NCBI GenBank assembly: GCA_024998625.1
Contig: JACOEL010000001.1
Coordinates: 186,001-250,000 of the forward strand
Source of the DNA: Nitrospira sp.
GTDB taxonomy: Bacteria; Nitrospirota; Nitrospiria; Nitrospirales; Nitrospiraceae
DNA: 64,000 nucleotides
Direction: 5' to 3'
Shown: in pieces, positions 47,310 to 64,000 of the stretch
How positions within the stretch are numbered: the first letter of the stretch is position 1
Layout of the letters: every line of letters begins with the position of its first letter
Notes under the pieces: generated by a model
Told to the model about the DNA's origin: nothing
Seen by the model: only the letters and a program-made list of their open reading frames with translations
Databases searched by the model: none
Made by a program: the position numbers and the translations under genes

Positions 47310-49123
47310 AACAGATCGCGTGTCTCGCTCCGGTATTCATCCAACATCAGCACCATCAATTCTTCCCGCTTGAGCGTCATGATCGAACCTTTGCTGCGGA
47401 TTCGTGCGGCGACATCTTTCAACTCAACCCGCTGTCCGGCAGGAAACTCCTTGAGCAGCGATTCCAGCGGAACATCCCCGGCACAACGCGACAGCAGGGA
47501 TTCCTGCTGCCGGTCTCCCCGCAGCACGGCTCCGACTCGATCGGGCTGGGAGAATCCGATATGTCCCAACAGGTCCCGCATTCGATGCACATAGGTATGC
47601 GCACCCAGGACACGCTCGCGGGCTGCAGCGGCCATAGCCTGTCGCGCCGCAGGATCTCCGAGCCATCGCTCTACGAGTCCGGGGACTTCATCGAAGTTCC
47701 GGAACGAGAGGATCTCCCGGTCGGTGAAAAAATCCGGCAACTGGGAGCGGGAATCGACCAGCTGAAACGCGCCACAGGCTGCCAGTTCAAAGGTCCGTGG
47801 ATTGACGAAATCGGCTTGCGGATCAAGGCTCGCGCCGGTCGTGGAGTGGACATTCAAATTAATCGCTGTGGCGTTGAACACCTTCATGCAGGTGTCGGTA
47901 TCGATTCGCGCCCCGTTAAGCTGCAGCACGGAGTGAAGCTCATCGGCCCCGTCCCACTCATTTCCCCAGAGTTTGAACGACCAGGGTCGGCGTAGCAGTG
48001 CCGGGAACAGGCGCCGGCGATTGGCATATCCCGCGCCGACGAAGGAGACATCCGCACCATAGGTGCGCCGTTCTTCATCAGACAGATCCATCGGGCGATG
48101 CAACTCAGGGTCTGCCGCCATGGGCAGAAAGCCGACATGCCGCGCACCCGCCTGCCGGAACGCATCGAGGCAGGCCCCCTGTTGAAACACGAACCAGTAG
48201 TCATACCCCGGTGCCATCTGTTGCCAATAGGTCAGGTGGCGATAGTTCTCGACGAACCACATGGCGGTCAGCAGCTTCTTCCTCCGGAGATGTTCGAGCA
48301 CCGGCAAGGTCAACGGAGCCTGAGCCAGCGACAGGACGAGATCGGGAGGTGACTCGGCCAGTGAGGCTAAGGTCCATTGGCTTAAGACTTCGGCCAAGCG
48401 ACCCTGCATCAGTTGGCGATTGCGCGCATCTTTCAGCGCCCCCATCGCCTCGTAACTTGACGCATGTACACTGTGATCGATCCATTGCACCTTGTGCCCG
48501 AGCGTTTCCAGGGCCCGTCTCACATAGCGTGCAATCGGCAGCGAACCGCCGTAAATGGGCCCTACCAGTGCGATCGTCAGCTGCCCGCCGGTCTGACGCG
48601 CTATTCCGCGCTGCAAGGCCTGCTCGAACGTGCTGTGGAAGTTCGTATCACTGTGCATGGCCGGAGCATAGGACAGACAGCGCAGGGGGCGGCCCGTCTT
48701 GCTCAGCCGGTCAGCGATCTCGACCGGCGTACCGGAGAGCCAGAGGATGTTCTCAGCCCATGATCCGAGGGGCCGCGCGACGAGCGCGTCATGGAATTCG
48801 TCGAGGTCGGAGATCAGCACCGCAACCACAAGCTCCGGCGCCACTCGCTTCCGAAGGGCCTCGACGTGGTACAGCAACCCGACGCCGGCCACGACGACGG
48901 TCTCGCCTTCCCGACAGGCGGGTGCATGGGTTTCGGCCCAGGTTTCCGCCTCGCGGATCGGATCATAGGCGCTGTGAATCCACCGGCCGGCTCGTCGCGC
49001 CGAAGGGACGCCACTCCGCGCCGGCTCGATTGTAAGTACACCGCCGGCTGAAGTTTTCACAGCCGCGGTGAGGGATGTATCCCCTGCGGCCAACCGGGCG
49101 ATGTTGTCGTTGAATAGAGTCAT
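47306..49123 (-). CDS. CgeB-like glycosyltransferase (GT-B)
   Basis: About 605 residues. The N-terminal 180 residues include a domain with AGVGLLYHVEALRKRVAPEL, the MAF-related style of flagellin-modification proteins. A GT-B region follows (IALVGPIYGGSLPIARYVRR, LVLSLAQAPLTLPVLEHLR, MWFVENYRHLTYWQQMAPGY). The CgeB C-terminal part has NVHSTTGASLDPQADFVNPR and FELAACGAFQLVDSR. ATG 49123 overlaps the upstream stop (ATGA). Together this looks like a transferase that acts on a protein such as flagellin. The sugar is unknown. Confidence 0.8.
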   Translation of the reverse strand: MTLFNDNIARLAAGDTSLTAAVKTSAGGVLTIEPARSGVPSARRAGRWIHSAYDPIREAETWAETHAPACREGETVVVAGVGLLYHVEALRKRVAPELVVAVLISDLDEFHDALVARPLGSWAENILWLSGTPVEIADRLSKTGRPLRCLSYAPAMHSDTNFHSTFEQALQRGIARQTGGQLTIALVGPIYGGSLPIARYVRRALETLGHKVQWIDHSVHASSYEAMGALKDARNRQLMQGRLAEVLSQWTLASLAESPPDLVLSLAQAPLTLPVLEHLRRKKLLTAMWFVENYRHLTYWQQMAPGYDYWFVFQQGACLDAFRQAGARHVGFLPMAADPELHRPMDLSDEERRTYGADVSFVGAGYANRRRLFPALLRRPWSFKLWGNEWDGADELHSVLQLNGARIDTDTCMKVFNATAINLNVHSTTGASLDPQADFVNPRTFELAACGAFQLVDSRSQLPDFFTDREILSFRNFDEVPGLVERWLGDPAARQAMAAAARERVLGAHTYVHRMRDLLGHIGFSQPDRVGAVLRGDRQQESLLSRCAGDVPLESLLKEFPAGQRVELKDVAARIRSKGSIMTLKREELMVLMLDEYRSETRDLL

Positions 49124-50313
49124 GCGGCAACCGATTCGCACAGGGTTGGAGAGAGGGTTCGCCAGACAGTCGCGCGGGCATCCTCGACACCCTCTTGTCC
49201 GGATCCGTCGTCAAAACTCGTACCCCATTGGTCCATACGATTTCTCCAGAGGGTCCAATCGGAGGCGGCACGACGCTGGTCGTCGCAGATCAACGCGATA
49301 CTTTCCATGATGGGCCAGCGCTCAGGCTGGGCTTGCGCGGCATGTTGATACACCCAATGCCCTTCCCCATAGGGGCCGGTTTCGTGCACCCGGGCATGAG
49401 AAAAATAGAATCCGATGGCTCGACTTCCCATTAACGTCCCTAGATGGAGCGGACCGGTATCGGCACCGATCACCCAGCGGCATTTATGGAGAAGCTTCAT
49501 CAATTGCGGGATGCTTGTGCGGCCGGTCGCGTCCCAGACACGTCCTTGGAACAACGCGGGAATCGATTCGAGAATGGCCTGTCCGGTTTCACGCTCGCGC
49601 CCGCTTCCGATCAGCACGACCTGTCCTTCGTCTGTCCGTGTCAGAAACTCGTGGGTCCACCGGCCCCATGTAGTCGCCGGGATGCAACGATCCGCCTCGC
49701 CCGCTCCGGTCACCAGCGCGACCCAGAGACCCTGCCGTTCACCGATGGAAGCCAGGTCGTCAGGCAGATCGACGGTCGGTGGCTGGAGGAGCGGCGCCCG
49801 GCCACGTGGCCTGACTCCGCTCATGCCGCACCAGGCATCGGCCAGATGCACCCGATTGTTGCCACGCCGTGTTGCGATATGCCGGAGATACTCGGTCCAT
49901 GGACGTATGCGTGCCTCTGAACGGTCGTCCCAATCCGCGCGCACACTCGGGCTGGAAAATAAGTGCGTCAGCAGAAGGCTACGGTTGTGTTGATTCAGCG
50001 GGTAGATCCGGCCGTAGGTGCTCTCCCCGAGCCCTGCTAGATACGCCTGCGCGGCGCGCAGAGTTCCGTTCGGGTCTTCCGACCACTGCTCGCCCCAGGC
50101 CCGCCATCGCCCGCCATCCCAGGGTATGACACGGCCGATGTTCCGAGCTTCACCAAGGACCGTTGCCAAGGGGGCCGAACAAAGGACATCCAAGGGCGTT
50201 TCAGGAGCGGCATCCACCAAGGCTTCGATCGCAGGAAGGGACTGCACCAGATCTCCTAATCTGGCCAGTTGGATCAGCAGCGCCCGGCTGTTTTGTGTCG
50301 ACTCATGCCGCAT
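49120..50313 (-). CDS. Glycosyltransferase family 9 (heptosyltransferase-like)
   Basis: 397 residues from ATG 50313 (MRHESTQNSRALLIQLARLG), where the N-terminal motif LLIQLARLGDLVQSLPAIEA begins. The frame continues upstream for about 95 further codons to 50598, but that part lies inside the preceding gene and is not protein-like. The donor motif is VIGADTGPLHLGTLMGSRAI. Compared with the other GT9 it lacks the long C-terminal extension. It overlaps the giant gene's stop by 11 bases. Confidence 0.85.
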   Translation of the reverse strand: MRHESTQNSRALLIQLARLGDLVQSLPAIEALVDAAPETPLDVLCSAPLATVLGEARNIGRVIPWDGGRWRAWGEQWSEDPNGTLRAAQAYLAGLGESTYGRIYPLNQHNRSLLLTHLFSSPSVRADWDDRSEARIRPWTEYLRHIATRRGNNRVHLADAWCGMSGVRPRGRAPLLQPPTVDLPDDLASIGERQGLWVALVTGAGEADRCIPATTWGRWTHEFLTRTDEGQVVLIGSGRERETGQAILESIPALFQGRVWDATGRTSIPQLMKLLHKCRWVIGADTGPLHLGTLMGSRAIGFYFSHARVHETGPYGEGHWVYQHAAQAQPERWPIMESIALICDDQRRAASDWTLWRNRMDQWGTSFDDGSGQEGVEDARATVWRTLSPTLCESVAA

Positions 50314-53300
50314 GGTCTGGAACCAGATGGCCCTCGGCCTCGGCCAGCTGCCTGGCCAGTTCGTCCATTCCTTCGAATGTCGGGGACAGTGCGCGCAGCC
50401 GTTCGAATTCTCGTTGCGCGTCCCCTCGCCGTCCGGATCGCAAGAGCACCCCTGCCAAAGCAAACCGCATGGCGACATTGCCCGGATTGCGGGCGACAAA
50501 TGCCGCGAGTCGCGAGGCGACCGCCTCCCACCGTTGGAGCATGGTCCCGCATCGGAGCAGCCAATGCATACATTCTTCGTCGTCCGGCTCATTCGCACAA
50601 AGGGTCATCAATTGCGACCAGGCTGCTTCGGCCCGCTCGGCACCCATCGCCGCCATGACGATGCCCAAGGAGGCTTTGCGTGAATCGGCCCCGGAGAGTT
50701 TCGCCCGCTCGAACGCCTCTTCCGCCTGCTGATACGCGTTGCGTTGCATGGCCACAATCCCGCGCAGCAGCCAACCCTCTCCATGCGAAGGTTTCTGTTG
50801 CAGCAGCGCCGTCAAATGGAGGTCCGCCTCATCGAACACACCTGTTTCAAGCGCTTGCTTCGCCAGTCCGATACGGGCATAGGCGTCTTCCTCGAAGGTG
50901 AGGATGCGTCGCCAGAATGGAATAGCCAGTTGAGGTTGGGCGACCCCGAGACAGACGAGCACCCCCCAACGCAGGATCCATGGGTCGGCGGGCCACTCAT
51001 CCACGCGCGCGAGGAAGGCGGAGACGGCATTGAAGTCGCGGCGATGGGCTGCACCCTGGACCTCCGCCAGGATCGCCCGTTGGGTCTTGGTCTCCGGGTC
51101 GGCAATCACTTGAAGACGGTAGCTCAATATGCCGTCGGTGACATGCGTGTGAATGGCATATCCATCTTCAAAGTGCAGGAGATCTTCATCCGTCACCCAC
51201 CAACAGGCGCCCCAGCGCTCCCGGAGGCGTTGGCTGTTGTCGAGTTCATGTATTTTCCTGCCCGGTGTCTTGCTTTCCAGGTGATAGAGCACACTTTTGG
51301 GTTGATAGACGATCTTCCACTCTTGCTTCCGAATTTTGAGACAGAGATCGACATCCTCAAAGCCGTTTCGATAGCCTTCGTCGAATCCATCCACCTGCTC
51401 AAAGACGCTACGGCGCACGAGCATGCATGCGGCGGTGACGCACTGCAATTCGCGCCGTCTGTTCGCACAGGCCGCCTCAGCGCGACCTCCGCGATACATA
51501 TGGTAAGGCATCAGACATTCACGTGAGAAGGCAACGCCGGCATGTTGGATCGACCCGTCTTCGAAGAGGAGTTTGCTGCCCACCACCGCCACCTCCGCGT
51601 GGGCGCGGATGTCCTCAACCAGCGCCGACAGCCATCCCTTCAACGGAATCGTGTCGTTATTCAGAAACACCAGGAATTCGCCGCGTGCCGCCCGCGCGCC
51701 CTGATTGCAGGCCTTGGCAAATCCGAGGTTCTCTTCATTACGGATCACTTGTACGTCACCCCCGAGCGTCCGGAGAAAATCCTGCACGCCGTCCGTCGAT
51801 CCGTTATCGACCAGAATCACTTCATAGGTCACGTCGTCGGTGACCTCCGCCAGCGCCGTCAGACATTGCCGGGTCAAGGCCGCATTGTTCCAGACGGGAA
51901 TAACGATCGAGCAAGCATACGATGGCTTCTTCGCCCGGCCCTTCAGCCCCGCCAAATGGTGTCGTTGTGCCTCCAGCATTGTCGGCTTCGCCGCCACGTA
52001 CGGAAAGTATTTTCGATAAATGATATCGGTGGTGCGGCAGAAGGCATCGTGATCGTGACTGGTCATCGATGAGCCGTCGGTTCTCCACGTGAACTCTGCG
52101 GTCGTCTGCGCGATGTGCGCAAAAGGATAGACGGTGGCGAGCCTGATCCAGAGATCCCAGTCTTCATGGACGAACAGACTTTCGTCGAACAAGCCCACCT
52201 CATCGAGGCAGGACCGCCGGTGCATCAGACAGAGCACCGGAATATAGTTGTGAACAAGCAGACGCTGAGCATCGAACTCATAGGAGTAGGGCCGGTCACG
52301 ACGCAATACCGTCGCCTCGGCTCCCGCTTCCTGTTCGGTGACACGCCAGGCATCGGTGTAGGCCACCTGATGGGTGCCACGTTCGAGAAAGGCGACGAGC
52401 GTGCCCAGGTGATCGGGCAGGAAGCGGTCATCGTCATCCAGATAGGCGACGTAGGTCCCGGTGGCATGGCGAAGACCGGTGTTGCGCGCCCCTGCCAGTC
52501 CCCGGTTGCGGTCATGCTTCACAAGCGTCGTTCGTCCGGCACGGTTCATCTCAGCGACAACGGATTCGACCGGAGTCGTGCCGTCATTGACCACGATCAC
52601 TTCGAAATCCTGGTACTGCTGAGAGTTGAGACTCTCCAAGGCCATGCGCAAGCGGTCCGGCCGGTTATAGGTCGGCACAATCACCGACACCATCGGTCGT
52701 CGTGTAAACGGCACCGGGTGCGTCCCCGTCGCCGCCGTACGACGGCAGGCCCAGACCTGATAAATGGGCATGAGTGTCTTGGTTCGATAGTCATGGGCGG
52801 TGGCCGCCGGGAAATACCGGAGGGAGGGCACTTCGATCGGAATGCGTTCCAGCCCCAAATGATGAAAGCCGCCGTCGGCCAATAGTTGGCCCAGCTGCTG
52901 CTCCGTCACCCAATCCTCCACGGGCTGATTGGGCGGAGCGATGCGTCGCCATTCTTCCCACACATCCCCGCGTGGAGTCGTCAGAATGAGATAGCCTTCA
53001 CTGGTGAGAAGCTGCGCCAGTTGGCTGACGAACCCCGGCTTCTCTGGATGGGGGACATGTTCAATGACTTCGGAACAGAGCACGATATCGAACGGCATGA
53101 AGTCCGGCCTGGCCAACACCGTCTCGGGTGTGCCCGCCTCGAAGCGAATGTGTGGAAACATCCGACGCGCATGCTCGACCACGCCGGCCACCGGCTCGAT
53201 GCCTTCACAGGTTCCATAGACTGTCGCCAGATTCGTCAGCCATCCCCGGCCACAACCCACATCGAGAATCCGTAGCGTGCGCCCAGGAGTCTCGCGCCGC

Positions 53301-55663
53301 GTCTGTCGCACGACATGTTCAAGGAACGACGCAATCTTCGACCAGCGCGCCGCTTCATCGGCGTTCGGTTCGGGTGTCGACCAAGCCGGTTTGTTAACGA
53401 ACAGGTCTACATAAAAGGCATTCTGATCCATAGACACCTTGGCTGATGGGTGGGAAATCGGGTCTGTCGTCGGCAACCCTGTGGCGGACGGCGAGGATTG
53501 AGCCGCAGGCGCCGGAACCGTGGTCTGGGCGGCGGATGGGGAGTTTGCCTGTTCCGACAAGCCATAGTCCGGAGTCTGTCCGGAGCGAATCCACTCCAAG
53601 GTTCCCTGAAGGCGTCGTTCGGCTGTGTGATACCGTTTGATCTTGCCCTGCGCCCGCTGAGCCAGGGACTCGGCCAATGCGCGATCATGCAGAATCCGGT
53701 CGATCTGCCCGGCAAGGGCTTCAGGCGTATCCTGGGGGAAGAGCAGGATGTCTTTCTCCGGTTCGAAGAGTCCCCTGTTCTTCGGATGCCCGGGAATGTC
53801 CCAGGAGATCACCGGTCGACCGGCCGCCATGGCTTCGATGACTCGTCCGCCATAAAATTTGGCGAGGCTCGGCAGGTTCACGATAGCCGGCCACTGAGCC
53901 AGTTGCCCCATCCACTCGCTGAATTCGGCGAGGCGGATCTGTTGCAAGGATTGGGCATATTCCCGGATAGCCTCGTCGGTGACTGCATGGCCCTCTGCCA
54001 GGTATTGGGCCGCGACTTGCTGCAACTGATCGAACAACTGCTGATTGTTCGTAGGAGGCTGAGCCCCTTTCGCGTATTGCAGACGCCTGCTCAGTGACGG
54101 CTCACTCACCCAATGCTGCCGCCGCCCATACGGCGTTCCATGGAAGACAGCCTGTGGCTGGGTCGGAGCGCCGGCGGGAGTAACGATGAACCGTTCCGGA
54201 ACCATCGGCGGCCACCAGAGCACGTTGGCGAATCCACGCGCCCGGAGCTCGGCGGCATCCTGCTCGTCCGGCGCCAGCACATGGGTCAAATAGGGAAGTT
54301 GCGCTTCCAAGTGTGCGGCACGACCTTTCAACTGTGGCGCCCAGGCATAGTCGCCCGCGTCGTAGCGAAGCGACTCCATGAGGACCCCGACTCGCACCGG
54401 CGCCAATTGAGCGACCCATTCCAGCGTAGCCTGGTCGAGAGGCGTATGGATGAGCCAGAGCCATACCTGATCGAAGTGCTGACCGGCCAGGGCCTTCCTG
54501 GCATGGTAGACCCATGACGCAGGCGTGGAGCAGGCGTTCTCGGCGATTGCCGGCACGGTGACACACTCGACGCCGTTCGCCCGCAAACCTTCCTGCACAC
54601 CGAAAGCTGCGCTATAGGTCCAAGGGCGTGCGGTGGCCCAGGTTTGGAAATCCAATTGAATCAACAGGGCTCGTTGCCGAGGAGCGGCGACAGAAGCTCT
54701 GGAAACTGCCGAAGCAGTCCGGACCTGTTCGCCGCGTTCCGCTCCCCTGGGCACAGCCGCACTCGCCGGTCGGCTTCGTTGTTCCCGCCAGCGTTGAAAC
54801 TCGGGATCCACCGTGGGGTCCCGGCGAATGAGGTGAGCGGGAATACGATCCTCAGAACAACGCGCCGGTGACATGTCGAAGCGTTCCCAACCAGTGCCGC
54901 GTTTTCTCACCGCCCAGCACCCTGCCACTTGGGACACTTCACCGAAGAGTTCCCCCACGGCCAACGTGACGCCGGGATGATATTCGTGCCCCGATCGCGG
55001 ATCGCGAATGTAGTCCGACTCGATCTGAGTGCGGGCATAGGCCTGGTCGATTTCGAATGATTGACGTTCCAGATCGTCACCGCACAAGACGCCCCCATCC
55101 TTGATCAGGCCCCCGGCCGCCTGAATATCCGCCAGCACTGCCGCATAGGAGTGGTCGCCGTCGACAAAGACGAGATCGAAATAGTTCCGCGGAAGGGCCG
55201 GCAACATGGCTGTGGCGGCCCCTCTAAGCGGAAGGACCAGGCCCGCATGGCCGGCAGTGGTGATGTTATGCAGAAACAACTCGTAGATCATATCGTTGGC
55301 CAAGGCGTCGGACATCTCACGGTACACGGCCGCGTCCGGTCGCTTCTGCACATCGAAATACGGCTTCCAGGGATCCACACAGACGACACGGCCGTTGGCT
55401 CGATGATGCCGGGTCAACGCCTCGGCCCACGTAATAGCCGATCCCCCGGCCCATGATCCCACCTCAAGAATATGAAACGGACCTGCACCTTGGCGGGAGG
55501 CCTCCAGCCGCACCAGTTCCTGCATCACTACGTGGCGAAGCGGGAGTCCTTGCGATGCCCACATCACCCGACCGAAATAGGGACGCAGCTGTTCGCGGCA
55601 GAATTGGTAGTACTCAACGTCCAGCGGAGTCACTCGGTTTGCCTCACGTGCACCTTGCGACAT
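50303..55663 (-). CDS. Giant multidomain glycan-assembly protein: two methyltransferases, three glycosyltransferases, TPR-like tail
   Basis: 1786 residues in one intact frame. Domains: 1-260 class I SAM methyltransferase (HILEVGSWAGGSAITWA, DLVFVDGDHSY); 330-695 CgeB-like GT-B (PSLAKFYGGRVIEAMAAGRP); a Ser/Pro/Ala linker (705-745); 745-970 second methyltransferase (RILDVGCGRGWLTNL, CSEVIEHVPHPEKPG); 990-1200 GT2 (MVSVIVPTYNRPDRLRMAL, AYLDDDDRFLPDHL); 1250-1500 second GT2 (CSIVIPVWNNAALTRQCL, LVFLNNDTIPLKGWL); 1520-1786 TPR-like repeats. It should assemble and methylate a short glycan in one polypeptide. The TPRs may recognise the protein acceptor (flagellin). Such long fusions occur in a few flagellar loci; this exact order is new to me. 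Confidence 0.9.
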   Translation of the reverse strand: MSQGAREANRVTPLDVEYYQFCREQLRPYFGRVMWASQGLPLRHVVMQELVRLEASRQGAGPFHILEVGSWAGGSAITWAEALTRHHRANGRVVCVDPWKPYFDVQKRPDAAVYREMSDALANDMIYELFLHNITTAGHAGLVLPLRGAATAMLPALPRNYFDLVFVDGDHSYAAVLADIQAAGGLIKDGGVLCGDDLERQSFEIDQAYARTQIESDYIRDPRSGHEYHPGVTLAVGELFGEVSQVAGCWAVRKRGTGWERFDMSPARCSEDRIPAHLIRRDPTVDPEFQRWREQRSRPASAAVPRGAERGEQVRTASAVSRASVAAPRQRALLIQLDFQTWATARPWTYSAAFGVQEGLRANGVECVTVPAIAENACSTPASWVYHARKALAGQHFDQVWLWLIHTPLDQATLEWVAQLAPVRVGVLMESLRYDAGDYAWAPQLKGRAAHLEAQLPYLTHVLAPDEQDAAELRARGFANVLWWPPMVPERFIVTPAGAPTQPQAVFHGTPYGRRQHWVSEPSLSRRLQYAKGAQPPTNNQQLFDQLQQVAAQYLAEGHAVTDEAIREYAQSLQQIRLAEFSEWMGQLAQWPAIVNLPSLAKFYGGRVIEAMAAGRPVISWDIPGHPKNRGLFEPEKDILLFPQDTPEALAGQIDRILHDRALAESLAQRAQGKIKRYHTAERRLQGTLEWIRSGQTPDYGLSEQANSPSAAQTTVPAPAAQSSPSATGLPTTDPISHPSAKVSMDQNAFYVDLFVNKPAWSTPEPNADEAARWSKIASFLEHVVRQTRRETPGRTLRILDVGCGRGWLTNLATVYGTCEGIEPVAGVVEHARRMFPHIRFEAGTPETVLARPDFMPFDIVLCSEVIEHVPHPEKPGFVSQLAQLLTSEGYLILTTPRGDVWEEWRRIAPPNQPVEDWVTEQQLGQLLADGGFHHLGLERIPIEVPSLRYFPAATAHDYRTKTLMPIYQVWACRRTAATGTHPVPFTRRPMVSVIVPTYNRPDRLRMALESLNSQQYQDFEVIVVNDGTTPVESVVAEMNRAGRTTLVKHDRNRGLAGARNTGLRHATGTYVAYLDDDDRFLPDHLGTLVAFLERGTHQVAYTDAWRVTEQEAGAEATVLRRDRPYSYEFDAQRLLVHNYIPVLCLMHRRSCLDEVGLFDESLFVHEDWDLWIRLATVYPFAHIAQTTAEFTWRTDGSSMTSHDHDAFCRTTDIIYRKYFPYVAAKPTMLEAQRHHLAGLKGRAKKPSYACSIVIPVWNNAALTRQCLTALAEVTDDVTYEVILVDNGSTDGVQDFLRTLGGDVQVIRNEENLGFAKACNQGARAARGEFLVFLNNDTIPLKGWLSALVEDIRAHAEVAVVGSKLLFEDGSIQHAGVAFSRECLMPYHMYRGGRAEAACANRRRELQCVTAACMLVRRSVFEQVDGFDEGYRNGFEDVDLCLKIRKQEWKIVYQPKSVLYHLESKTPGRKIHELDNSQRLRERWGACWWVTDEDLLHFEDGYAIHTHVTDGILSYRLQVIADPETKTQRAILAEVQGAAHRRDFNAVSAFLARVDEWPADPWILRWGVLVCLGVAQPQLAIPFWRRILTFEEDAYARIGLAKQALETGVFDEADLHLTALLQQKPSHGEGWLLRGIVAMQRNAYQQAEEAFERAKLSGADSRKASLGIVMAAMGAERAEAAWSQLMTLCANEPDDEECMHWLLRCGTMLQRWEAVASRLAAFVARNPGNVAMRFALAGVLLRSGRRGDAQREFERLRALSPTFEGMDELARQLAEAEGHLVPDHAA

Positions 55664-55673
55664 ATCAGTCCCC

Positions 55674-57512
55674 TTACGGCTGTGACCGATCGTTCCGGCG
55701 AACCACGTCCGGATATTCAGGGTTCATCCACCCTTCCGCCGGCTCGATGACCATGTTGGCACGGAATTCTTCACGAGGCAGATAGGGATACATGTCCTCG
55801 ATCGGTGTCTTCCACCCGAAGATCCTGGGCTCGTAGGTGTGGAATTCGTGCATGTCCACATCACAGACCACGGGGCCGTCGAACCGGAGCACCTCGTCGA
55901 TCTTGGCGTCCATCTCGGCATGGTTGCGAATGGCCACGGTCTTGATCCCGTAGGCCTGCACGATCTTGAGAAAGTCCGGCGGGTTGTACCCTTTCGGGCC
56001 ACAGGCCTCGGCGCGGCCTTGAAAGTTCGTTTCCTGGTAGGCCTTGGTGATGCCGTAAATGTGGTTGTTGAGGATGAACGTCTTCACCTTCACGCCGTAG
56101 TTGATGAACGTCTGCAGTTCCTGGGGATTCATGTTGAAGCCCCCGTCCCCGATCGTGCAGACCACTTGACGGCTTGGCGCGGCAAACCAGGCGCCCATCG
56201 CTCCGGCAAAGGAGAATCCCATGGGAGAGTTGCCGTTGTTCGTGAGATTCCGCTGCCCGTATTTGGTTTCAAAGGCATGGTTGCTGACGACGATATTGCC
56301 TCCGCAGTCTCCGACCAGAATATCCGTGGTGCCCATCTTTTCAGAAAGGCGGCGCATGAACGCATAGGGGTGTACCCGCTCACGCTGGTCGAAGAACTCG
56401 GGCCGGACCGGGTCGTACTGGCGTTTCCACTCCATCACCCGTTCTGTCCACCCCGAATAATCCGGCAGCGGTTTGCTGCGACGATCCAGGGCGATCAACA
56501 GGCGCTGAGTGAACACTTTCGCATCGCAGAGAATGTTCACATCGAACGGCACTTGCTGAAACTTCCGCTGCACCATCGCCAGATCGATTTCCACCAAGAA
56601 CTTCTTGGCCTGGCGCGCAAAGCTTTGGACATTGCCGCCGGTAATGCGGCCGGAGATACGGCTGCCGATCGACAGCAGCAAGTCACTGTTTTGAATTCCG
56701 AAGTTCCGGCCGGCTCCCCCGTACGTTCCGACCCGTCCGCCGTAGTTTTCATAGTCCGAGCTGATCACGTCCAAGGCATTCCAGGTCGGAAAGCAGGGTA
56801 CGTTCAACCGCCGACCCAATGCGCGCACGTCATCCTGGGCATTCGCGAGACGCACGCCGCCGCCGACGAGAATGACCGGTCGTTCAGCATGTTGGAGCTC
56901 CGCGATGAAACGGGAGATCTGCTCATCCACCACGGTAAGGTCGAAGTTTGTGGCGGCGGGAGGCTCAAACCCGATGAGCTGCTTGGCATCGATCATCGTC
57001 TTTTGGACATCAAGGGGAATATCCAGCAGCACCGGTCCCGGCCGTCCTTCCTGGCAAAGCCACAGCGCCTTTTCCAATTCATACCGCACGTCTTCGGGCT
57101 TGACGACCATCTTGGCGTATTTCGTGACCGGCGCCGCCATGGCCACGATGTCGGTCTCCTGGAATCCGATCTGGCGAATGGCAGGATCGGGCCGGAGGAA
57201 TCGGGAATTGATCTGGCCGGTCAGAAAGACGCAGGGCACGGAGTCATAAAAGCAGTTGCCCATCGCCGTGAGAAGATTCATCCCACCCGGTCCGCTCGTG
57301 GCGATGGCCACCCCGGGCACGCCCTTCACCTTGGCATAGGCCTCGGCTGCAAACCCGCCGGCCTGCTCATGCATGACGGCGACGTATTCCGTGGCGGCGG
57401 TGCGGGTGAACGCATCGATGAGGTCGCCGTTCGCCGCGCCGTAGACCACGAACATCTTGTCGATTCCCCGTTCCGCCAATGTATGGATGATGAAATCCGC
57501 AACCTTGATCAT
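55674..57512 (-). CDS. Thiamine-diphosphate enzyme, acetolactate synthase-like
   Basis: 612 residues. N-terminal Pyr domain with the catalytic Glu in AVMHEQAGGFAAEAYAKVKG. Central domain (RPVILVGGGVRLANAQDDVR). C-terminal PP domain with the ThDP motif CTIGDGGFNMNPQ...ILNNHIYG. It uses pyruvate or another 2-keto acid to make a C2 carbanion. The neighbours make sugar nucleotides, not Val/Ile, and there is no small subunit gene, so a sugar C-C bond reaction is likely. YerE-type enzymes that add acetyl to 4-keto-deoxy sugars are a known precedent. Start ATG 57512 has AAGGA seven bases upstream. Confidence 0.88.
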   Translation of the reverse strand: MIKVADFIIHTLAERGIDKMFVVYGAANGDLIDAFTRTAATEYVAVMHEQAGGFAAEAYAKVKGVPGVAIATSGPGGMNLLTAMGNCFYDSVPCVFLTGQINSRFLRPDPAIRQIGFQETDIVAMAAPVTKYAKMVVKPEDVRYELEKALWLCQEGRPGPVLLDIPLDVQKTMIDAKQLIGFEPPAATNFDLTVVDEQISRFIAELQHAERPVILVGGGVRLANAQDDVRALGRRLNVPCFPTWNALDVISSDYENYGGRVGTYGGAGRNFGIQNSDLLLSIGSRISGRITGGNVQSFARQAKKFLVEIDLAMVQRKFQQVPFDVNILCDAKVFTQRLLIALDRRSKPLPDYSGWTERVMEWKRQYDPVRPEFFDQRERVHPYAFMRRLSEKMGTTDILVGDCGGNIVVSNHAFETKYGQRNLTNNGNSPMGFSFAGAMGAWFAAPSRQVVCTIGDGGFNMNPQELQTFINYGVKVKTFILNNHIYGITKAYQETNFQGRAEACGPKGYNPPDFLKIVQAYGIKTVAIRNHAEMDAKIDEVLRFDGPVVCDVDMHEFHTYEPRIFGWKTPIEDMYPYLPREEFRANMVIEPAEGWMNPEYPDVVRRNDRSQP

Positions 57513-57537
57513 GACCGTTCCTTTCCCCTCTCTCCCG

Positions 57538-59046
57538 CTAGGCAGCTGCATTCGTGGCCTCATCCTGATACCGGCGCCGGACCTGGCGCCGGCACATGTC
57601 CGCCACGTGTGTCGCGACGTGCGGACCGAACGTGCGGTGCAACATGTTCAGATACTGTGGATGCGTGAAATACTCGATAAAAGCCCGATCCCGGAATGCC
57701 AGGACCTGCGTCGCCGTGAGATGATCGGTCGGCAAGGGACGGCAGCCGTAGGCATGCTGCGCGTACCCGATCCATCCGGGGCCTCCCTGGTCATCGGGCA
57801 GAGCCCACTGTTTCTGCTTCGCCAGCGTGTACAGCGGTGAACCGGGGTACGCCATCGCACAGTAAAAGTTGGCCCACTCCGTATTGAGCGTGAGGGCCAG
57901 GTCCAACGTGGCGCGCATGCTTTCCATCGTGTCGTCGGGCAGGCCGAAGATATAGTTGGCCGCCACATGAATGCCGTAGGAGCGGATCTTGTCGACCGTC
58001 GCCACAATGTCCCGTTCGCCGAAGCGGCCTTTTTCGACACCGTCGCGGACATGCTGGCTTCCAGATTCGATCCCGAGCCCCAGCCAGGTGAATCCAGCCC
58101 GCGCGAGTTTCGCCAGTACTTCATCCTGGACCGTGTCCACGCGAGCATAGGCCCAGATATTGAGCCGGTACCCTCGCTCGATGATGCGATCGCAGATGCC
58201 GATGACATGCCGCCGGTTCAGCACAAACATTTCATCGGGGATCTTGATATTACTGACGCCATAGTCCTGGACCAGCCGGTCGATCTGCGCAATGACGTTG
58301 TCCGGGCTCCAGGCTCGCAACATAGGAGTTCCAAAAGGCGAATTGATGCAGCAGAAGGAGCAGGTAAACGGGCAACCCAAACTGGTCTGCAGCGACGCGT
58401 ACGGAGCCCGCGCCTCAAGATTGCCGAAGCAATGCCAGTTGTGGGCGCGATACCGGGTCATATCGAGGAGATCCCAGGCCTGCCCCGGCAACTCGCGATC
58501 CAGATTCGTCAGCAGTTGGGCCGGAGCATTCCCGACCGGCACCCCCTGCTCCAGGTGCCAGAGGCCGGGAACCTCGCGGAGCGAATGTTGAGGCGCGCGT
58601 AGGGCGATCACCAGACCGAGAATCGTGGAGGGGCCTTCTCCCTGGCAGACATAGGTATACGGCTCTTCCAACAGGGTCCGTTTCGGCAGTGCCGAGGGGT
58701 GCGTTCCCATGACGAGCGTGGGAATATCGGCCAGTGTATTGAGGATTTCGCACACCTTCCGGCCGGCGGGCATACATTGCGTGGAGGCGGAGGGTTGTTG
58801 CCCATAGATCACGAAGACTGCCAGTCGCGGCGCGATGACGGCGATCCGCTCCGCCGTCTGCTGGTGGTTCAACCCCTCTGCCTCGGCATCCAGAATGGCA
58901 ACGGAGCAGCTGTGTTGGCGCAAGAACGTCGCGATCAAACCCGACCAGACCGGTGGTTCAATGGCGGCCAGGTCCCGGCTCAGGTCTTGATAGACCTGCA
59001 CCCGGCTGGGCGGGGTGACCAGCAACACGTCAAGCGGCTTGGACAC
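57538..59046 (-). CDS. Radical SAM protein, B12-binding-type architecture
   Basis: 502 residues from GTG 59046, preceded by GGGAGGT four bases upstream; the frame extends further but without such a site. The N-terminal region (PLDVLLVTPPSRVQVYQDLS...PPVWSGLIATFLR) has the usual B12-binding fold pattern, though the cobalamin DxHxxG motif is not evident. The radical SAM motif is CPFTCSFC. The C-terminal region resembles the Elp3/MiaB-type radical SAM barrel. In sugar loci such enzymes perform C-methylation or related radical chemistry on nucleotide sugars. The exact step is unknown. Confidence 0.83.
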   Translation of the reverse strand: MSKPLDVLLVTPPSRVQVYQDLSRDLAAIEPPVWSGLIATFLRQHSCSVAILDAEAEGLNHQQTAERIAVIAPRLAVFVIYGQQPSASTQCMPAGRKVCEILNTLADIPTLVMGTHPSALPKRTLLEEPYTYVCQGEGPSTILGLVIALRAPQHSLREVPGLWHLEQGVPVGNAPAQLLTNLDRELPGQAWDLLDMTRYRAHNWHCFGNLEARAPYASLQTSLGCPFTCSFCCINSPFGTPMLRAWSPDNVIAQIDRLVQDYGVSNIKIPDEMFVLNRRHVIGICDRIIERGYRLNIWAYARVDTVQDEVLAKLARAGFTWLGLGIESGSQHVRDGVEKGRFGERDIVATVDKIRSYGIHVAANYIFGLPDDTMESMRATLDLALTLNTEWANFYCAMAYPGSPLYTLAKQKQWALPDDQGGPGWIGYAQHAYGCRPLPTDHLTATQVLAFRDRAFIEYFTHPQYLNMLHRTFGPHVATHVADMCRRQVRRRYQDEATNAAA

Positions 59047-60250
59047 GGCAACCTCCCAGTTGTTGCGCAAAGGCGATCGTGCGAGACAGACCTTCGTCCA
59101 CATCCTCTTCCTGCCCGCACACGGCAATGCGAATGAACGACGCGTAGGCGTCGCCGAAACTGCGTCCCGGGGTGACCGCCGTCTGGTGATCGTCCAGCAA
59201 TCGCCGGCAAAAGGTCATGTCATCGAGTCCGGTGCGCGCGATATCGACAAACAGATAGAACCCGGACTCCGGCTTGTGGCAATGCAGGATCCCGGAGCGA
59301 TTGATGCGGGTGTGGCAGGATTCGGTCAGGCGGGAGCCCCGTGATCGAACCTCGCTCGCATACGTATCGAGCACCTTCATCCCGGCGAGGCAACCAAGTT
59401 GAGTAAATAGGGGAAGACAGGAATAGAGAGTCGAATTCGAGAGCGCGAGTTTCGCCGCCACCGCCTCATGGGCGAAGGCATAGCCGGTTCGAAACCCCGG
59501 GATCGAGCACACCTTTGAAAAGGACGACATCGCCACGACATACCTGGCTTGCGCCGAGGCGAGGGTCACGAACGAACCATCGAACGTCAGATCGGCATAG
59601 GTCTCATCGCTCAACAGCCAGATCCCCGCCTCTTCACAGCGCTCCGCAAGCGCACGCAGGATCATTGAATCGTACAGGGCCCCTGTGGGGTTGTTGGCAT
59701 TGTTGACGACAATCGCCCTCGGTTCGGCAGCCAGTGCCTCATCGACGGCTTGTCGGGTCAGGTGAAATCCGTCTCGTTCAGAAAGCGCCACCGCCCTGAC
59801 CTGAAGGCCCTGATGCGCCGCAGCGGCCCAGTAGGAGGGAAACGCCGGCGCGAACAGCACCAGGCGGTCGCCGGGATTGCAGGTGATGTCCAGAAACTGG
59901 TGAATCAGGAGATTCGCCGGGCTGATCACGACATGGGAGTCCGTCAACGCCTCGCCCGTCAACGAGGTATATCGAGCAGCCAAGGCGGCGCGTAACTCCT
60001 TCACACCGGCCATCGGCGCGTACCCCAGTTGTTTCTCGCTGATCGCCTGGACGGTGCCGTCGACGATCTCACCCGGCGGAGCCATGCGGGGATTGCCGAG
60101 TTCTAGATGATAGATGCGGTGCCCCTGCCGCTCCAGCGTTTGAGCCCGATCCATGACCCGGAACATCTCTTGTCCGATCAGCCGCTCACCCCGCGCTGAA
60201 AATGTCAATCGGCTCGGTGTCTGTGAAGCCGGGACTGTCTGATGAGCCAT
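59030..60250 (-). CDS. PLP-dependent class I/II aminotransferase
   Basis: 406 residues, fold type I. Features: VVNNANNPTGALYDS (about 190-204), SDETYADLTFDGS with the ring-stacking Tyr and Asp, and the PLP Lys in SSFSKVCSIPGFRTGY (intact). The C-terminal segment is SGFYLFVDIARTG. It starts at ATG 60250, overlapping the upstream stop by one base (TAATG), and its stop overlaps the radical SAM gene by 17. Such enzymes usually act on amino or keto acids, not on sugars. It may make the keto acid used by the ThDP enzyme or a donor for the DegT-type enzyme. Confidence 0.87.
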   Translation of the reverse strand: MAHQTVPASQTPSRLTFSARGERLIGQEMFRVMDRAQTLERQGHRIYHLELGNPRMAPPGEIVDGTVQAISEKQLGYAPMAGVKELRAALAARYTSLTGEALTDSHVVISPANLLIHQFLDITCNPGDRLVLFAPAFPSYWAAAAHQGLQVRAVALSERDGFHLTRQAVDEALAAEPRAIVVNNANNPTGALYDSMILRALAERCEEAGIWLLSDETYADLTFDGSFVTLASAQARYVVAMSSFSKVCSIPGFRTGYAFAHEAVAAKLALSNSTLYSCLPLFTQLGCLAGMKVLDTYASEVRSRGSRLTESCHTRINRSGILHCHKPESGFYLFVDIARTGLDDMTFCRRLLDDHQTAVTPGRSFGDAYASFIRIAVCGQEEDVDEGLSRTIAFAQQLGGCRVQAA

Positions 60251-61017
60251 TACAGCAGCGATCCTTGTTCCTGATGCATGGACCTGACCGGAAAATGGAC
60301 CGACGGATCTTTCCAGACTTCGCGAAAATGCGCGAGGCGCTCGGGGGTGCCGATGTCATACAGGGGGCTGGCTGTGACGAATCCATAACAGGGTTCAGTG
60401 ACCAGCTGCGGAAGTAACTCGCGCTCCAGGGACCAGGAATGACTCTTCGGAAACAGCGCCTCAACGGTACGATCGAACAGATAGATGCCGGCGTTGTGAT
60501 AGCCCGTCATTCTGCGGCGCGGCTTCTCCACCATGGACAGGAGGCGGTCGTCCTCCCCTAACCTGACGGCTCCGGTATCTTCCCGTGTGTCGGCTGGCGT
60601 GACCGCGATTGTCGCGCGAGCGCGTTTACGGGTATGGAACCGCAGGAGTCGCTCCGGATCGAGCTCACAGAGCGAGTCTCCGTTCAGCACTAAAAAGGGA
60701 TTGCTGCGAACGAGCGTCATGGCTTGCGCGACTGCTCCGCCCGTTCCCAGCGGAGCGGGGTCGCGGACGAACAGGGTTTCATACCCGCCGCGATGGCGCC
60801 CAAACCAGTCCTCGATCATGTCGCCCTTATATCCGGTGCTGAAAATGAATCGACGGGCGCCGTGCCGCAGGAAATGTTCGACGAGGCATGCCACAAACGG
60901 GCGGCCATGAATCTCCGCCATCGATTTCGGGCGATCCGCCACGACCGATTGCAGGCGTGTACCGAGTCCCCCGCATAGAACAATCACATCGCAGTCCGCG
61001 AACCGGCCCATCGTCAC
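60250..61017 (-). CDS. Sugar-1-phosphate nucleotidyltransferase (HddC-like)
   Basis: 255 residues. Nucleotide-binding loop VIVLCGGLGTRLQSVVADRP with PKSM following, STGYKGDMIEDWFG, LVLNGDSLCELDPERL (catalytic Asp) and GRPFVACL. It closely resembles HddC/RfbM-type D-glycero-alpha-D-manno-heptose-1-phosphate guanylyltransferases in length and in the PKSMAEIHGRPF segment. It would activate a sugar-1-phosphate with GTP, CTP or UTP. GTG 61017 overlaps the kinase stop (GTGA); ATG 61011 is an alternative. Confidence 0.85.
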   Translation of the reverse strand: MTMGRFADCDVIVLCGGLGTRLQSVVADRPKSMAEIHGRPFVACLVEHFLRHGARRFIFSTGYKGDMIEDWFGRHRGGYETLFVRDPAPLGTGGAVAQAMTLVRSNPFLVLNGDSLCELDPERLLRFHTRKRARATIAVTPADTREDTGAVRLGEDDRLLSMVEKPRRRMTGYHNAGIYLFDRTVEALFPKSHSWSLERELLPQLVTEPCYGFVTASPLYDIGTPERLAHFREVWKDPSVHFPVRSMHQEQGSLL

Positions 61018-62084
61018 GCCGCCTTTCCGAGTAACGCGGCCTTCAATTGGGAGGCCGTATCAGCCGAGTGATGCGCCCACACGTCGTCGAGCAGGAGATG
61101 ATCTTCCTGATAAAACACGATCTGTGTCCCCAAGCCTTCAAACTTAAACGGAACCTGCAACAATCCGGGCAGCGCCCGGCGAATCCGCTCATGGTCCTCG
61201 GGCTTGGCAAACAGGAGCATGAACCCCCCGCCTCCGGCGCCCAGCAACTTTCCGCCCAACGCACCGGCCGCCCTGGCCGCCGCGTAGATCTCGTCGATGG
61301 CCGGAGTGGTAACGCGCGACGTCAACCGGCGTTTGAGCATCCAGCCTTCGTGCAGCAAGGATCCGAACGCAGCCAGATCGCCGCCGCCGGTGAGAATGGT
61401 AATCCCCTCCTCCACCATCTCCAGCATGGCCAACAGTTCCGCTGTGCGTTGGCGCGTGCGATCGATCTGCTCGCGCGCCACTTCCGATGCGATCCGCGAA
61501 AACCCGGTGAAGTACAGTTGCAAGTGGCTCTGAAAGGCGGCAAGCCGGTCGGGCCGCATGATGATCGGGGTATGCCCGATCTCTCCGTTCTGAAAGAACG
61601 TCGCCTTACACAGGCCACCATGCGCCGCCAACACCTGGTCCTGGCAACCGACCGCTTCTCCAAGCACGTTTTGCTCGACATGGATGGCCGCTTGGGCCAA
61701 CTGGTCCTTGCTGGGCATGATGTGCTGAAGGGCATACAGCGTATGGAGCAGGCCGACCGTGAACGAAGAGCTCGATCCCAACCCCGTGCGGGCCGGCAGG
61801 TCTCCGTCGTGGTGGATCTCCAGGCCGTCGTTGATGTTGAGATACTTCAGGACGCCGCGGACTGCGGGATGTTCGATCTCTTCATGGTTCTTCACCAGTT
61901 CAACCCGAGAATAGACAATGCGCGATCGGTGTTCGAAAAACGGCGGTAGGCGGCGGCAGCTAATGTAGCAATACTTATCGATGGTTGTGGCGAGGACGGC
62001 GCCGCCATGTTCACGAAACCACACGGGATAGTCGGTGCCGCCGCCGAAGAAGGACATCCGGAACGGTGTTCGACTGATAATCAT
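61014..62084 (-). CDS. GHMP sugar kinase, HddA-like (D-glycero-D-manno-heptose-7-phosphate kinase)
   Basis: 356 residues. Start MIISRTPFRMSFFGGGTDYP is the HddA/GHMP signature. Motif 2 is RTGLGSSSSFTVGLLH (about residues 99-114). Motif 3 is KLLGAGGGGFMLLFA near the C-terminus. It phosphorylates the C1 of a sugar-7-phosphate or sugar. With the HddC-like gene downstream it implies NDP-heptose, most likely GDP-D-glycero-D-manno-heptose, as precursor. GmhA and GmhB, needed for the full route, are not in the window. Confidence 0.87.
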   Translation of the reverse strand: MIISRTPFRMSFFGGGTDYPVWFREHGGAVLATTIDKYCYISCRRLPPFFEHRSRIVYSRVELVKNHEEIEHPAVRGVLKYLNINDGLEIHHDGDLPARTGLGSSSSFTVGLLHTLYALQHIMPSKDQLAQAAIHVEQNVLGEAVGCQDQVLAAHGGLCKATFFQNGEIGHTPIIMRPDRLAAFQSHLQLYFTGFSRIASEVAREQIDRTRQRTAELLAMLEMVEEGITILTGGGDLAAFGSLLHEGWMLKRRLTSRVTTPAIDEIYAAARAAGALGGKLLGAGGGGFMLLFAKPEDHERIRRALPGLLQVPFKFEGLGTQIVFYQEDHLLLDDVWAHHSADTASQLKAALLGKAA

Positions 62085-62114: not shown

Positions 62115-63062
62115 TCAGACATTGGCATACTGACCGGCTTTGATGATCGTGTAACACTTCATCAACTCACGAATGCCGCGTTCCAAGGACCACTCCGGCT
62201 TAAACCCGGTTGCCACTAGACGCTGATTGGATACGATATAGTCGCGCTTGTCGGGGTCCTCGCCGATCGGCGCCTCGAACGACACGAAATGCGGAATGAG
62301 CGTCTGGATGACCCGGCAGAGTTCGAGTTTCGAGAGGTTGGCATCGTCCAGACCCACGTTGTACGGACGATCTTTCATCTCGTCGAAATGATCGATGGCA
62401 TGCAGAAACGTCCGGACGACGTCCCGGATATGGATGTAGTTGCGTTTGCAGTGCCCTTCGAATACGACGACGGCGCGATCCTGCACGGCGCGCCAGACGA
62501 AATCGTTGACTAGCAGATCCATGCGCATTCTGGGCGATACGCCGAACACCGTGGCCAGGCGCAGCGTGATGGCGTTTCCCCGGTCCAACACCACCCGCTC
62601 GGCTTTCACTTTGGTTTCGCCATAGAGGCTGATGGGACGTAGCGGTGACTCCTCCGTGCAGGGCACTCCCGGTTGCCCGATGCCATAGCCGCTGTTCGTG
62701 ACGGGAAAAATGATCCGCTGCCTGGGAGAAGACAGTTTACACAAGAGCTGAACGGCCTCGAAGTTGACCGTGTAGGCTCCGACGCGATCACGGTCACAGC
62801 GTGGTGCCCCGACGAGCGCCGCAAGCGGAATGATGATGTCGGCCGTTCGCAGGAGATCGGTCAACAGGCGTTCGTCGCGGCAATCGCCCCGCACCACCTG
62901 GAAACCCTCCTCGCCGCAACAATCCATCAAACTGTTTTGGCGATACATGAAATTGTCCAGGACGGTGACCTTGTAACCACGGTCCAATAAACGTTTGCTG
63001 AGCACGGAGCCGAGATAACCGGCGCCGCCTGTCACGAGCACATGGGTCGAGGCTGTCGTCAT
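62115..63062 (-). CDS. NAD-dependent epimerase/dehydratase (extended SDR)
   Basis: 315 residues from ATG 63062. Rossmann motif HVLVTGGAGYLGSVLSKRL (about 8-26), NAD-type acidic end of strand 2 (VLDNFMY), catalytic SLYGETKVKAE (YxxxK) and TNSGYGIG. C-terminal half is sugar-binding. The reaction (epimerisation, 4,6-dehydration or reduction) cannot be told from sequence. It lies between the DegT-type gene and the HddA-like kinase gene, so it acts on the same NDP-sugar pathway. Confidence 0.87.
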   Translation of the reverse strand: MTTASTHVLVTGGAGYLGSVLSKRLLDRGYKVTVLDNFMYRQNSLMDCCGEEGFQVVRGDCRDERLLTDLLRTADIIIPLAALVGAPRCDRDRVGAYTVNFEAVQLLCKLSSPRQRIIFPVTNSGYGIGQPGVPCTEESPLRPISLYGETKVKAERVVLDRGNAITLRLATVFGVSPRMRMDLLVNDFVWRAVQDRAVVVFEGHCKRNYIHIRDVVRTFLHAIDHFDEMKDRPYNVGLDDANLSKLELCRVIQTLIPHFVSFEAPIGEDPDKRDYIVSNQRLVATGFKPEWSLERGIRELMKCYTIIKAGQYANV

Positions 63063-63114
63063 GATCGAACAAGCTCCCCTGTGAATACATAGCTGCTGAA
63101 ATACACCAGTGCTG

Positions 63115-64000
63115 TCACGCAGCCTCCAGGACAATCCGTGCGATGTGAGCCACATCCTGTTCGTTCATGGAGGCGTGATTGGGCAGGAAGAAACCACAAT
63201 GATGCACGCGGTCCGCGATAGGGAAGCTGGCCTTCCCGTAGCGGTTCATCCAGAAAGGATGGAGCCCTAAATTGCCGGCGGAGAAGATTCTCGTCTCCAC
63301 TCCTTCTGCGACCAACGCCCGGACAATTCGACGACGTTGCTCCGTCGAATCCGCGAGCAGCCCGAAGGAGATGCTGGCGACCTTGCTCCCCTTCGGCGGG
63401 CGCTGAGTATAGAACCGCCCGCCCAAATGCTGCAGGTACCGTTCATGATTGGCCTGCCGTTGCCCGGTCATCCAGTCCAGTTTGTGTAGTTGCTCGATGC
63501 CGATAAAGGCATTGAGATCCGTGGAGCGGAGATTGAAGCCCGGTTCGTAAAACACGAAGGGCGAGTGGAAATCGTCGACCTGGTACTGCGTCACCAATGC
63601 CTGATGGCTGGTCTGGTCGAGGTCCTTGCTCCACCCGTGGCTGCGCAGCATCAGGAGCATGTCCGCCAGATGCTTGTCGCTGGTCGACACCATGCCGCCT
63701 TCGATCGTGGACATCTGATGGCCGAAATAGAAAGAGAAGCTCGCCATATCGCCGAATGTGCCGATCTTCTTGCCGCCATATTCCGCTCCGATGGCGGCAC
63801 AGGCATCTTCGAGCAGATAAAACCCGTACCGGTCCTTCAGGGTCTGCAGTTCCTGCATGCGATGCGGAACGCCGAGAACCTGAACGAGTAACACCGTCTG
63901 CGCGTCATGGCGTTGTAAGAGGTCTTCCAGATGATTGAGGTCAAGTCCGAAGGTATCAGGATCGGCCTCGCACATGATGGGTGTGAAGCCGAATTGAATC
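63115..64000 (-). CDS. DegT/DnrJ/EryC1-type enzyme with His in place of the PLP lysine (partial)
   Basis: Runs into the right window edge; upstream codons IQFGFTP confirm that the true start lies beyond. Fold type I signature: EDACAAIGAEYGGKKIGTFG, then SFSFYFGHQMSTIEGGMVST. In aminating members the loop reads S-F-x-x-x-K-x; here the Lys position is His (codon 63718-63720). The same Lys-to-His change is known in ColD and RfbH, the PMP-dependent 3-dehydratases that make 3-deoxy sugars. The rest of the fold (LRSHGWSKDLDQ, FNLRSTDLNAFIGIEQLHK) looks intact. It is probably a sugar 3-dehydratase, not an aminotransferase. Confidence 0.85.
   Translation of the reverse strand, partial: IQFGFTPIMCEADPDTFGLDLNHLEDLLQRHDAQTVLLVQVLGVPHRMQELQTLKDRYGFYLLEDACAAIGAEYGGKKIGTFGDMASFSFYFGHQMSTIEGGMVSTSDKHLADMLLMLRSHGWSKDLDQTSHQALVTQYQVDDFHSPFVFYEPGFNLRSTDLNAFIGIEQLHKLDWMTGQRQANHERYLQHLGGRFYTQRPPKGSKVASISFGLLADSTEQRRRIVRALVAEGVETRIFSAGNLGLHPFWMNRYGKASFPIADRVHHCGFFLPNHASMNEQDVAHIARIVLEAA

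Follow-up and report, generated by a model that had tools for sequence, protein, structure and literature searches.

We identified, at the edge of a 64,000-nucleotide stretch of Nitrospira sp. DNA (the window, by which we mean the whole stretch analysed), a gene for a DegT-fold protein (DegT-His) that carries a histidine where aminating relatives have the PLP Schiff-base lysine and whose operon neighbours are predicted GDP-heptose and ThDP-dependent enzymes. Sequence shows that the histidine replaces the lysine and is fixed, that the protein has the fold and pocket residues described below, and that its operon is one in which GDP-heptose and ThDP enzymes are conserved associates; we are moderately confident of the account as a whole, in which DegT-His would be a ColD-type dehydratase acting on a GDP-4-keto-heptose, its product would be branched by the ThDP enzyme, and the resulting sugar would decorate flagellin. 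For a broader proposal, namely that a widespread and undescribed pathway to GDP-activated C4-branched 3-deoxyheptoses couples a ColD-type dehydratase acting on GDP-4-keto-heptose to a ThDP carboligase of any of three unrelated classes, and serves flagellin decoration in Nitrospira, our confidence is evenly balanced.

Histidine at the Schiff-base lysine position

The full DegT-His protein (P0001) has 397 aa and runs from an ATG at window-equivalent position 64308 to the stop at 63115, with His197 in the context SFYFG-H-QMSTIEGG. An earlier note on this DNA had read the codon as a histidine replacing the Schiff-base lysine, and the alignments bear this out. In a phmmer search against the PDB, in which ColD 2gms was the best match (E 8.2e-49), His197 pairs with H188 of ColD, and in the H188N/H188K ColD mutant entries (3b8x, 2r0t, 3gr9) the altered letter falls in the same column; MAFFT pairs it likewise with H220 of an RfbH (RfbH/E1). 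The catalytic lysine is present in aminating DegT enzymes (ArnB, PerB, PseC) and at the corresponding position of the other DegT proteins read from this genome (e.g., L001, L003, L007), and histidine was found in all DegT-His homologues read. The note had also allowed for a conserved lysine elsewhere in the loop, but the alignment places none there, the loop of the DegT-His protein having no other lysine.

The histidine proved to be fixed among homologues from other Nitrospirota, a point that the note had left to be checked. A search of 296 genomes of the phylum, made without any sequence pattern, yielded 29 full-length Nitrospiraceae orthologues (76-100% identity, the window's own included), with an orthologue in every same-genus genome listed; an orthologue from Candidatus Nitrospira defluvii is 98% identical, which suggests a Nitrospira similar to that species as the source of the window. 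All 29 have histidine at position 197 (codons CAT 21, CAC 8), as do 80/80 further loci from a contig database (CAT 41, CAC 39), which were picked by two patterns, one including the histidine and the other (MST[IV]EGGM) not. These 80 loci belong to Nitrospirota, Elusimicrobiota, Acidobacteriota, Omnitrophota, Lentisphaerota, Verrucomicrobiota, Chloroflexota, Pseudomonadota and other phyla. Since both CAT and CAC are used, it is the residue, and not the codon, that is conserved; a sequencing error, the other caveat of the note, is ruled out by the occurrence of histidine with both codons throughout the orthologues and the further loci.

Two outlying sequences were also recorded. Another Nitrospiraceae genome has a 104-aa remnant, 65% identical to DegT-His and with an in-frame TGA (G009:C5:413353-413664), and a Lokiarchaeota contig (L123 6486-7652) encodes a relative of 40% identity with the motif FGHTMSTIEGG.

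The DegT-His gene is the first of a minus-strand operon in which neighbouring genes overlap slightly or are separated by no more than about 50 bases. Its order is that of Table 1, from DegT-His to the ThDP enzyme, downstream of which come the large multidomain protein, the two GT9 genes with the DUF3880 glycosyltransferase between them, and flagellin. The 1786-aa frame holds two methyltransferase domains, a GT1-like part, two GT2 domains and TPR repeats; its counterpart in other Nitrospira loci has about 810-850 aa, but the sequence there stops at the locus edge. The class I aminotransferase lies near GntC/VioD-type models and, within the clade, occurs in Nitrospira loci only, mostly alongside a YerE-like or E1 enzyme; it may supply a 2-oxo-acid donor or transaminate the branch.

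Table 1. Coordinates of the DegT-His operon and of the genes downstream of it, in window positions.
Feature	Coordinates	Strand	Remarks
DegT-fold, ColD-type sugar C3-dehydratase (PMP), predicted	63115..64000	-	5' part beyond window edge
His197 codon CAT, at PLP Schiff-base lysine position	63718..63720	-	
SDR, Cj1427-type NAD-dependent C4-dehydrogenase of GDP-heptose, predicted	62115..63155	-	likely start 63062
GHMP kinase, HddA (D-glycero-D-manno-heptose 7-phosphate kinase) type	61014..62084	-	PDB 3k85, E 4e-36
Nucleotidyltransferase, HddC type	60250..61017	-	PDB 6jq8/5xhw, E 8e-33
Class I/II PLP aminotransferase	59030..60250	-	
B12-binding radical SAM protein	57538..59127	-	co-conserved with the clade
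YerE/JanthE-like ThDP-dependent decarboxylase, predicted keto-sugar branching	55674..57563	-	likely start near 57512
1786-aa multidomain methyltransferase/glycosyltransferase/TPR protein	50303..55663	-	
GT9 (heptosyltransferase family) protein	49120..50598	-	
DUF3880 + Glyco_trans_1_2 glycosyltransferase	47306..49141	-	
GT9 (heptosyltransferase family) protein	45633..47309	-	
Flagellin, proposed glycan acceptor	43980..44807	-	

Enzyme class and predicted substrate

An AlphaFold2 model of the 98%-identical N. defluvii orthologue, built from a 63-sequence alignment, reached a pLDDT of 94.6. Its top fold match is ColD (3b8x/2gms: Z 50, 2.0-2.1 A, 374-376 residues; 3b8x singly: Z 50.2, 2.1 A, 374 residues), followed by E1 (Z 47) and then by aminating enzymes (Z 43-47; all by VIA-align), and Foldseek likewise places ColD first. 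An alignment of 63 homologues shows no variation at W96, D168, S192 and H197, which correspond to W88, D159, S183 and H188 of ColD, the first three of which we take to be pocket residues. Of the E1 iron-sulphur cysteines that can be aligned, DegT-His keeps only C170, which is also present in ColD. In the tree, His-type enzymes (RfbH, ColD and the DegT-His group) split from Lys-type enzymes with support of 100/100; the clade at least 50% identical to P0001 is monophyletic (100/99), its sister is a group of 40-45% identity, and ColD, at 27-28% identity to DegT-His, falls outside, although several reference rows are long-branched and their exact placement is unsure.

The change from lysine to histidine is the chief difference between 3-dehydratases and aminotransferases, the histidine serving as acid/base (PMC8987622). 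An H220K variant of E1 is reported to carry out a single turnover of transamination (PMC8987622). The mechanism of ColD is established and proceeds through a PMP ketimine, proton abstraction by histidine, loss of the C3 hydroxyl and hydrolysis, with glutamate regenerating PMP (PMC8987622). Based on its fold, its PMP-pocket residues and the missing E1 iron-sulphur cysteines, DegT-His is very likely a PMP-dependent sugar C3-dehydratase of the ColD type, a chemistry that is itself already known. The reading of PMP-dependent C3 deoxygenation in the earlier note thus gains support from the best sequence and fold match, ColD, and from the invariant pocket residues. As a refinement, the enzyme is to be compared with ColD and not with RfbH, since it lacks the E1 iron-sulphur cysteines.

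That DegT-His might instead be an iron-sulphur 3-dehydrase of the RfbH/E1 type, partnered by an E3 reductase, is hardly credible, despite the histidine common to E1 and DegT-His and the close E1 fold: the cysteines are missing save the one also found in ColD, the NCBIfam RfbH model gives 195.9 bits against a cut-off of 423, and the operon products scanned included no E3-type reductase. The RfbH/E1 identity was dismissed on the cysteines and on this family score. Similarly, losing the lysine alone would end the usual PLP chemistry and could leave a degenerate or non-catalytic aminotransferase; we regard this as a very faint prospect, since the histidine and the remaining pocket are invariant across many phyla and the His-type enzymes share their own clade with known 3-dehydratases.

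For a C3-dehydratase of the ColD type, the operon neighbours suggest a substrate. The best solved relative of the SDR is 6vo6 (E 1.4e-113, 55% identity over 310 aa), which we take to be Cj1427; the protein has a TNSGYG motif and YxxxK, and is without the S/T-[DS]-E motif of 4,6-dehydratases. N-S-G-Y-G and YxxxK are kept in 37/37 SDR relatives examined, with the S/T-[DS]-E signature missing from the motif. The kinase has as its best solved relative a D-glycero-D-manno-heptose kinase (3k85) and as its top model NCBIfam HddA, though the score is below the cut-off of that model. The best PDB matches of the nucleotidyltransferase are each named 'Putative 6-deoxy-D-mannoheptose pathway protein', and this guanylyltransferase also scores under its NCBIfam equivalog cut-off. 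Furthermore, the genome has a GmhA-like gene (200.7 bits against a cut-off of 209.45) and a GmhB-type HAD gene that passes a family cut-off which also spans histidinol phosphatases; SIS and HAD genes of the GmhA/GmhB kinds are present in some homologous loci.

With a Cj1427-type SDR, an HddA-type kinase and an HddC-type guanylyltransferase as operon neighbours, the predicted substrate of DegT-His is most likely a GDP-4-keto-heptose, and not the 6-deoxyhexose of ColD and RfbH. A Campylobacter C3-dehydratase acts on GDP-6-deoxy-4-keto-heptose (PMC10440746), and Cj1427 together with the Campylobacter C3-dehydratase gave GDP-3-deoxy-4-keto-heptose in vitro, in an artificial mix whose GDP-3-deoxy-heptoses were presented as novel (PMC10680097). 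For GDP-3-deoxy-4-keto-heptose, that study reports m/z 616.08 and, by NMR, two protons on C3 (PMC10680097). Separately, an SDR that bears an S-[TS]-S-E motif and may be a GDP-heptose 4,6-dehydratase stands beside the same genes in four clade loci (L070, L072, L082, L094). This motif suggests that 6-deoxy versions of the sugar also exist, the 6-hydroxyl possibly being lost in those loci.

A function like that of ColD itself was also considered. A strong GMD homologue lies in the window at 9776-10786, about 52 kb from the DegT-His gene, so that the cell probably also has GDP-4-keto-6-deoxymannose, which could be turned into a colitose-like 3,6-dideoxyhexose; ColD is, moreover, the best sequence and fold match, and GMD adjoins 7/23 loci of the sister group. 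Against this, a GMD at least 50% identical stands beside 0/44 loci of the DegT-His clade, the operon kinase, guanylyltransferase and C4-dehydrogenase are all of the GDP-heptose type, and the low identity and the position outside the ColD branch separate DegT-His from that enzyme. We therefore hold the ColD function to be quite improbable.

The heptose-type neighbours of DegT-His are conserved across its clade, which spans many phyla. Neighbours were counted in loci of at least 11 kb only (44 of the clade, 23 of the sister group), with related loci counted as independent. The Cj1427-type SDR occurs in 38/44 clade loci, the HddA-type kinase in 36/44, the ThDP enzyme in 37/44 and the B12 radical SAM protein in 30/44, each against 0/23 in the sister group, whereas GMD shows the reverse pattern given above; Fisher p-values for clade versus sister, which ignore kinship, range from 1e-12 to 3e-4. 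Outside Nitrospira, the clade loci have the SDR in 21/27, the kinase in 19/27 and the ThDP enzyme in 20/27 cases. In the available sequence of seven of the 44 clade loci, the ThDP enzyme was not found.

ThDP enzymes and flagellar context

In the PDB search, the ThDP enzyme of the window was closest to 8rph (E 7.7e-101), an acetolactate synthase coming next (E 2.7e-77). A CDG motif is found in 8rph where the others, including the window enzyme, have the canonical GDG. JanthE is a YerE-like enzyme with CDG (PMC12247030), and on this shared motif 8rph is taken as JanthE. A housekeeping acetolactate synthase was rejected as the identity of the ThDP protein, the genome having a separate acetolactate synthase-like copy at C7 that is 31% identical.

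In other loci the place of the ThDP enzyme is filled by E1-alpha/beta (PF00676, PF02779/PF02780), and in further ones by a split transketolase (PF00456, PF02779/PF02780). Even among Nitrospira loci (L050, L062, L073) the ThDP cassette differs while the remaining operon is largely unchanged, and at least nine switches among YerE-like, E1-alpha/beta and split transketolase forms are needed on the DegT tree. The classes known to branch keto-sugars are YerE-like decarboxylases, alpha-keto acid dehydrogenase 2 and split transketolases (PMC12247030), and the three classes swapped in the clade are exactly these. Neither of two E2 queries matched any of the 80 loci, a result in keeping with carboligation and not with acyl-CoA synthesis; on the same result, the E1-alpha/beta pair was rejected as a component of a 2-oxoacid dehydrogenase complex. 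ThDP branching has precedent on 3,6-dideoxy-4-keto-hexoses, as in yersiniose and erwiniose (PMC12247030). In this context, the ThDP enzyme is likely to branch the predicted DegT-His product at C4.

The product might otherwise stay unbranched, as a 3-deoxyheptose or 3,6-dideoxyheptose in the manner of Campylobacter HS:5, with the ThDP enzyme belonging to a separate glycan branch. The Campylobacter pathway does work without a ThDP enzyme (PMC10440746), and two further operon products, the aminotransferase and the B12 radical SAM protein, stand outside the proposed steps. Nevertheless, the ThDP enzyme is tied to the clade as strongly as the heptose enzymes, and its three unrelated forms are all known keto-sugar branching classes, which makes an unbranched product unlikely and leaves C4 branching as our preferred reading.

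Genes for flagellin, FliD, FlgK and FlgL flank the operon, and the two GT9 genes lie between it and the flagellin gene. Upstream of the operon are PilZ-like, HD-GYP-like and histidine-kinase-like genes, then FlgL, FlgK and other flagellar genes (named by eye). The DegT-His gene of a Hydrogenedentes contig (L074) has a divergent flagellin gene as its immediate neighbour, and a FliD-like gene stands in the flank of the DegT-His homologue of a Chloroflexota contig (L089). From the Nitrospira gene order and the two GT9 genes beside flagellin, it is reasonably likely, by guilt by association, that the sugar is put on flagellin.

Proposed pathway and comparison with known systems

The substrate, step order, product and acceptor that we infer form the following scheme. 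The HddA-type kinase and the HddC-type guanylyltransferase would make GDP-D-glycero-D-manno-heptose, the C4 of which would be oxidised by the adjacent Cj1427-type SDR. DegT-His would then take off the C3 hydroxyl to give GDP-3-deoxy-4-keto-heptose, with His197 as the acid/base replacing the PLP lysine and glutamate regenerating PMP. The YerE-like ThDP enzyme would take an acyl unit from a 2-oxo acid and join it to the ketone at C4, and the branched 3-deoxyheptose so formed would probably be attached to flagellin.

The first three steps (GDP-heptose, C4 oxidation, C3 deoxygenation) have biochemical precedent (PMC10440746, PMC10680097). In the open-access literature we found no description of a branched or 3-deoxy heptose pathway with a ThDP enzyme, nor of a natural pairing of the C4-dehydrogenase with the C3-dehydratase, which has been published as an artificial in vitro mix. 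Here, homologues of Cj1427 and of the C3-dehydratase are adjacent genes, a pairing that is kept in many phyla. Should the ThDP step hold, the pathway would represent a new group of branched seven-carbon sugars, in which an exchangeable enzyme sets the branch, and would offer a way to heptoses that bear tertiary alcohols; for Nitrospira, which are environmentally important nitrifiers, it would also supply a concrete and testable hypothesis for a flagellin glycan. The mass of the proposed product is readily predicted.

Compared with ColD of E. coli O55, DegT-His has the same fold, the active-site histidine and equivalents of W88, D159 and S183, and is likewise without iron-sulphur ligands; it differs in its distant sequence, its separate clade, its GDP-heptose-type neighbours and in having no adjoining GMD. 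The C3-dehydratase of C. jejuni HS:5/HS:11 (PMC10440746) is comparable in that the reaction predicted for DegT-His also falls on a GDP-4-keto-heptose. However, the Campylobacter enzyme is 62-67% identical to ColD and acts after a 4,6-dehydratase (PMC10440746), whereas the DegT-His clade lies far from ColD and has a C4-dehydrogenase as its partner. Cj1427 (PMC10680097) shares its motifs with the adjacent SDR, to which it is closely related, but in Campylobacter HS:2 its action is followed by C3/C5 epimerisation and C4 reduction, without a C3-dehydratase (PMC10680097). JanthE, if 8rph is rightly assigned by its CDG motif, is the nearest solved relative of the window ThDP enzyme, which has GDG instead. 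Finally, the yersiniose pathway (E1 and YerE; PMC12247030) also joins C3 deoxygenation of a 4-keto nucleotide sugar to a subsequent ThDP carboligation, using a CDP-hexose and an iron-sulphur E1 where the Nitrospira operon would use a GDP-heptose and a ColD-type enzyme; unlike that pathway, the DegT-His clade interchanges three ThDP classes within one operon type.
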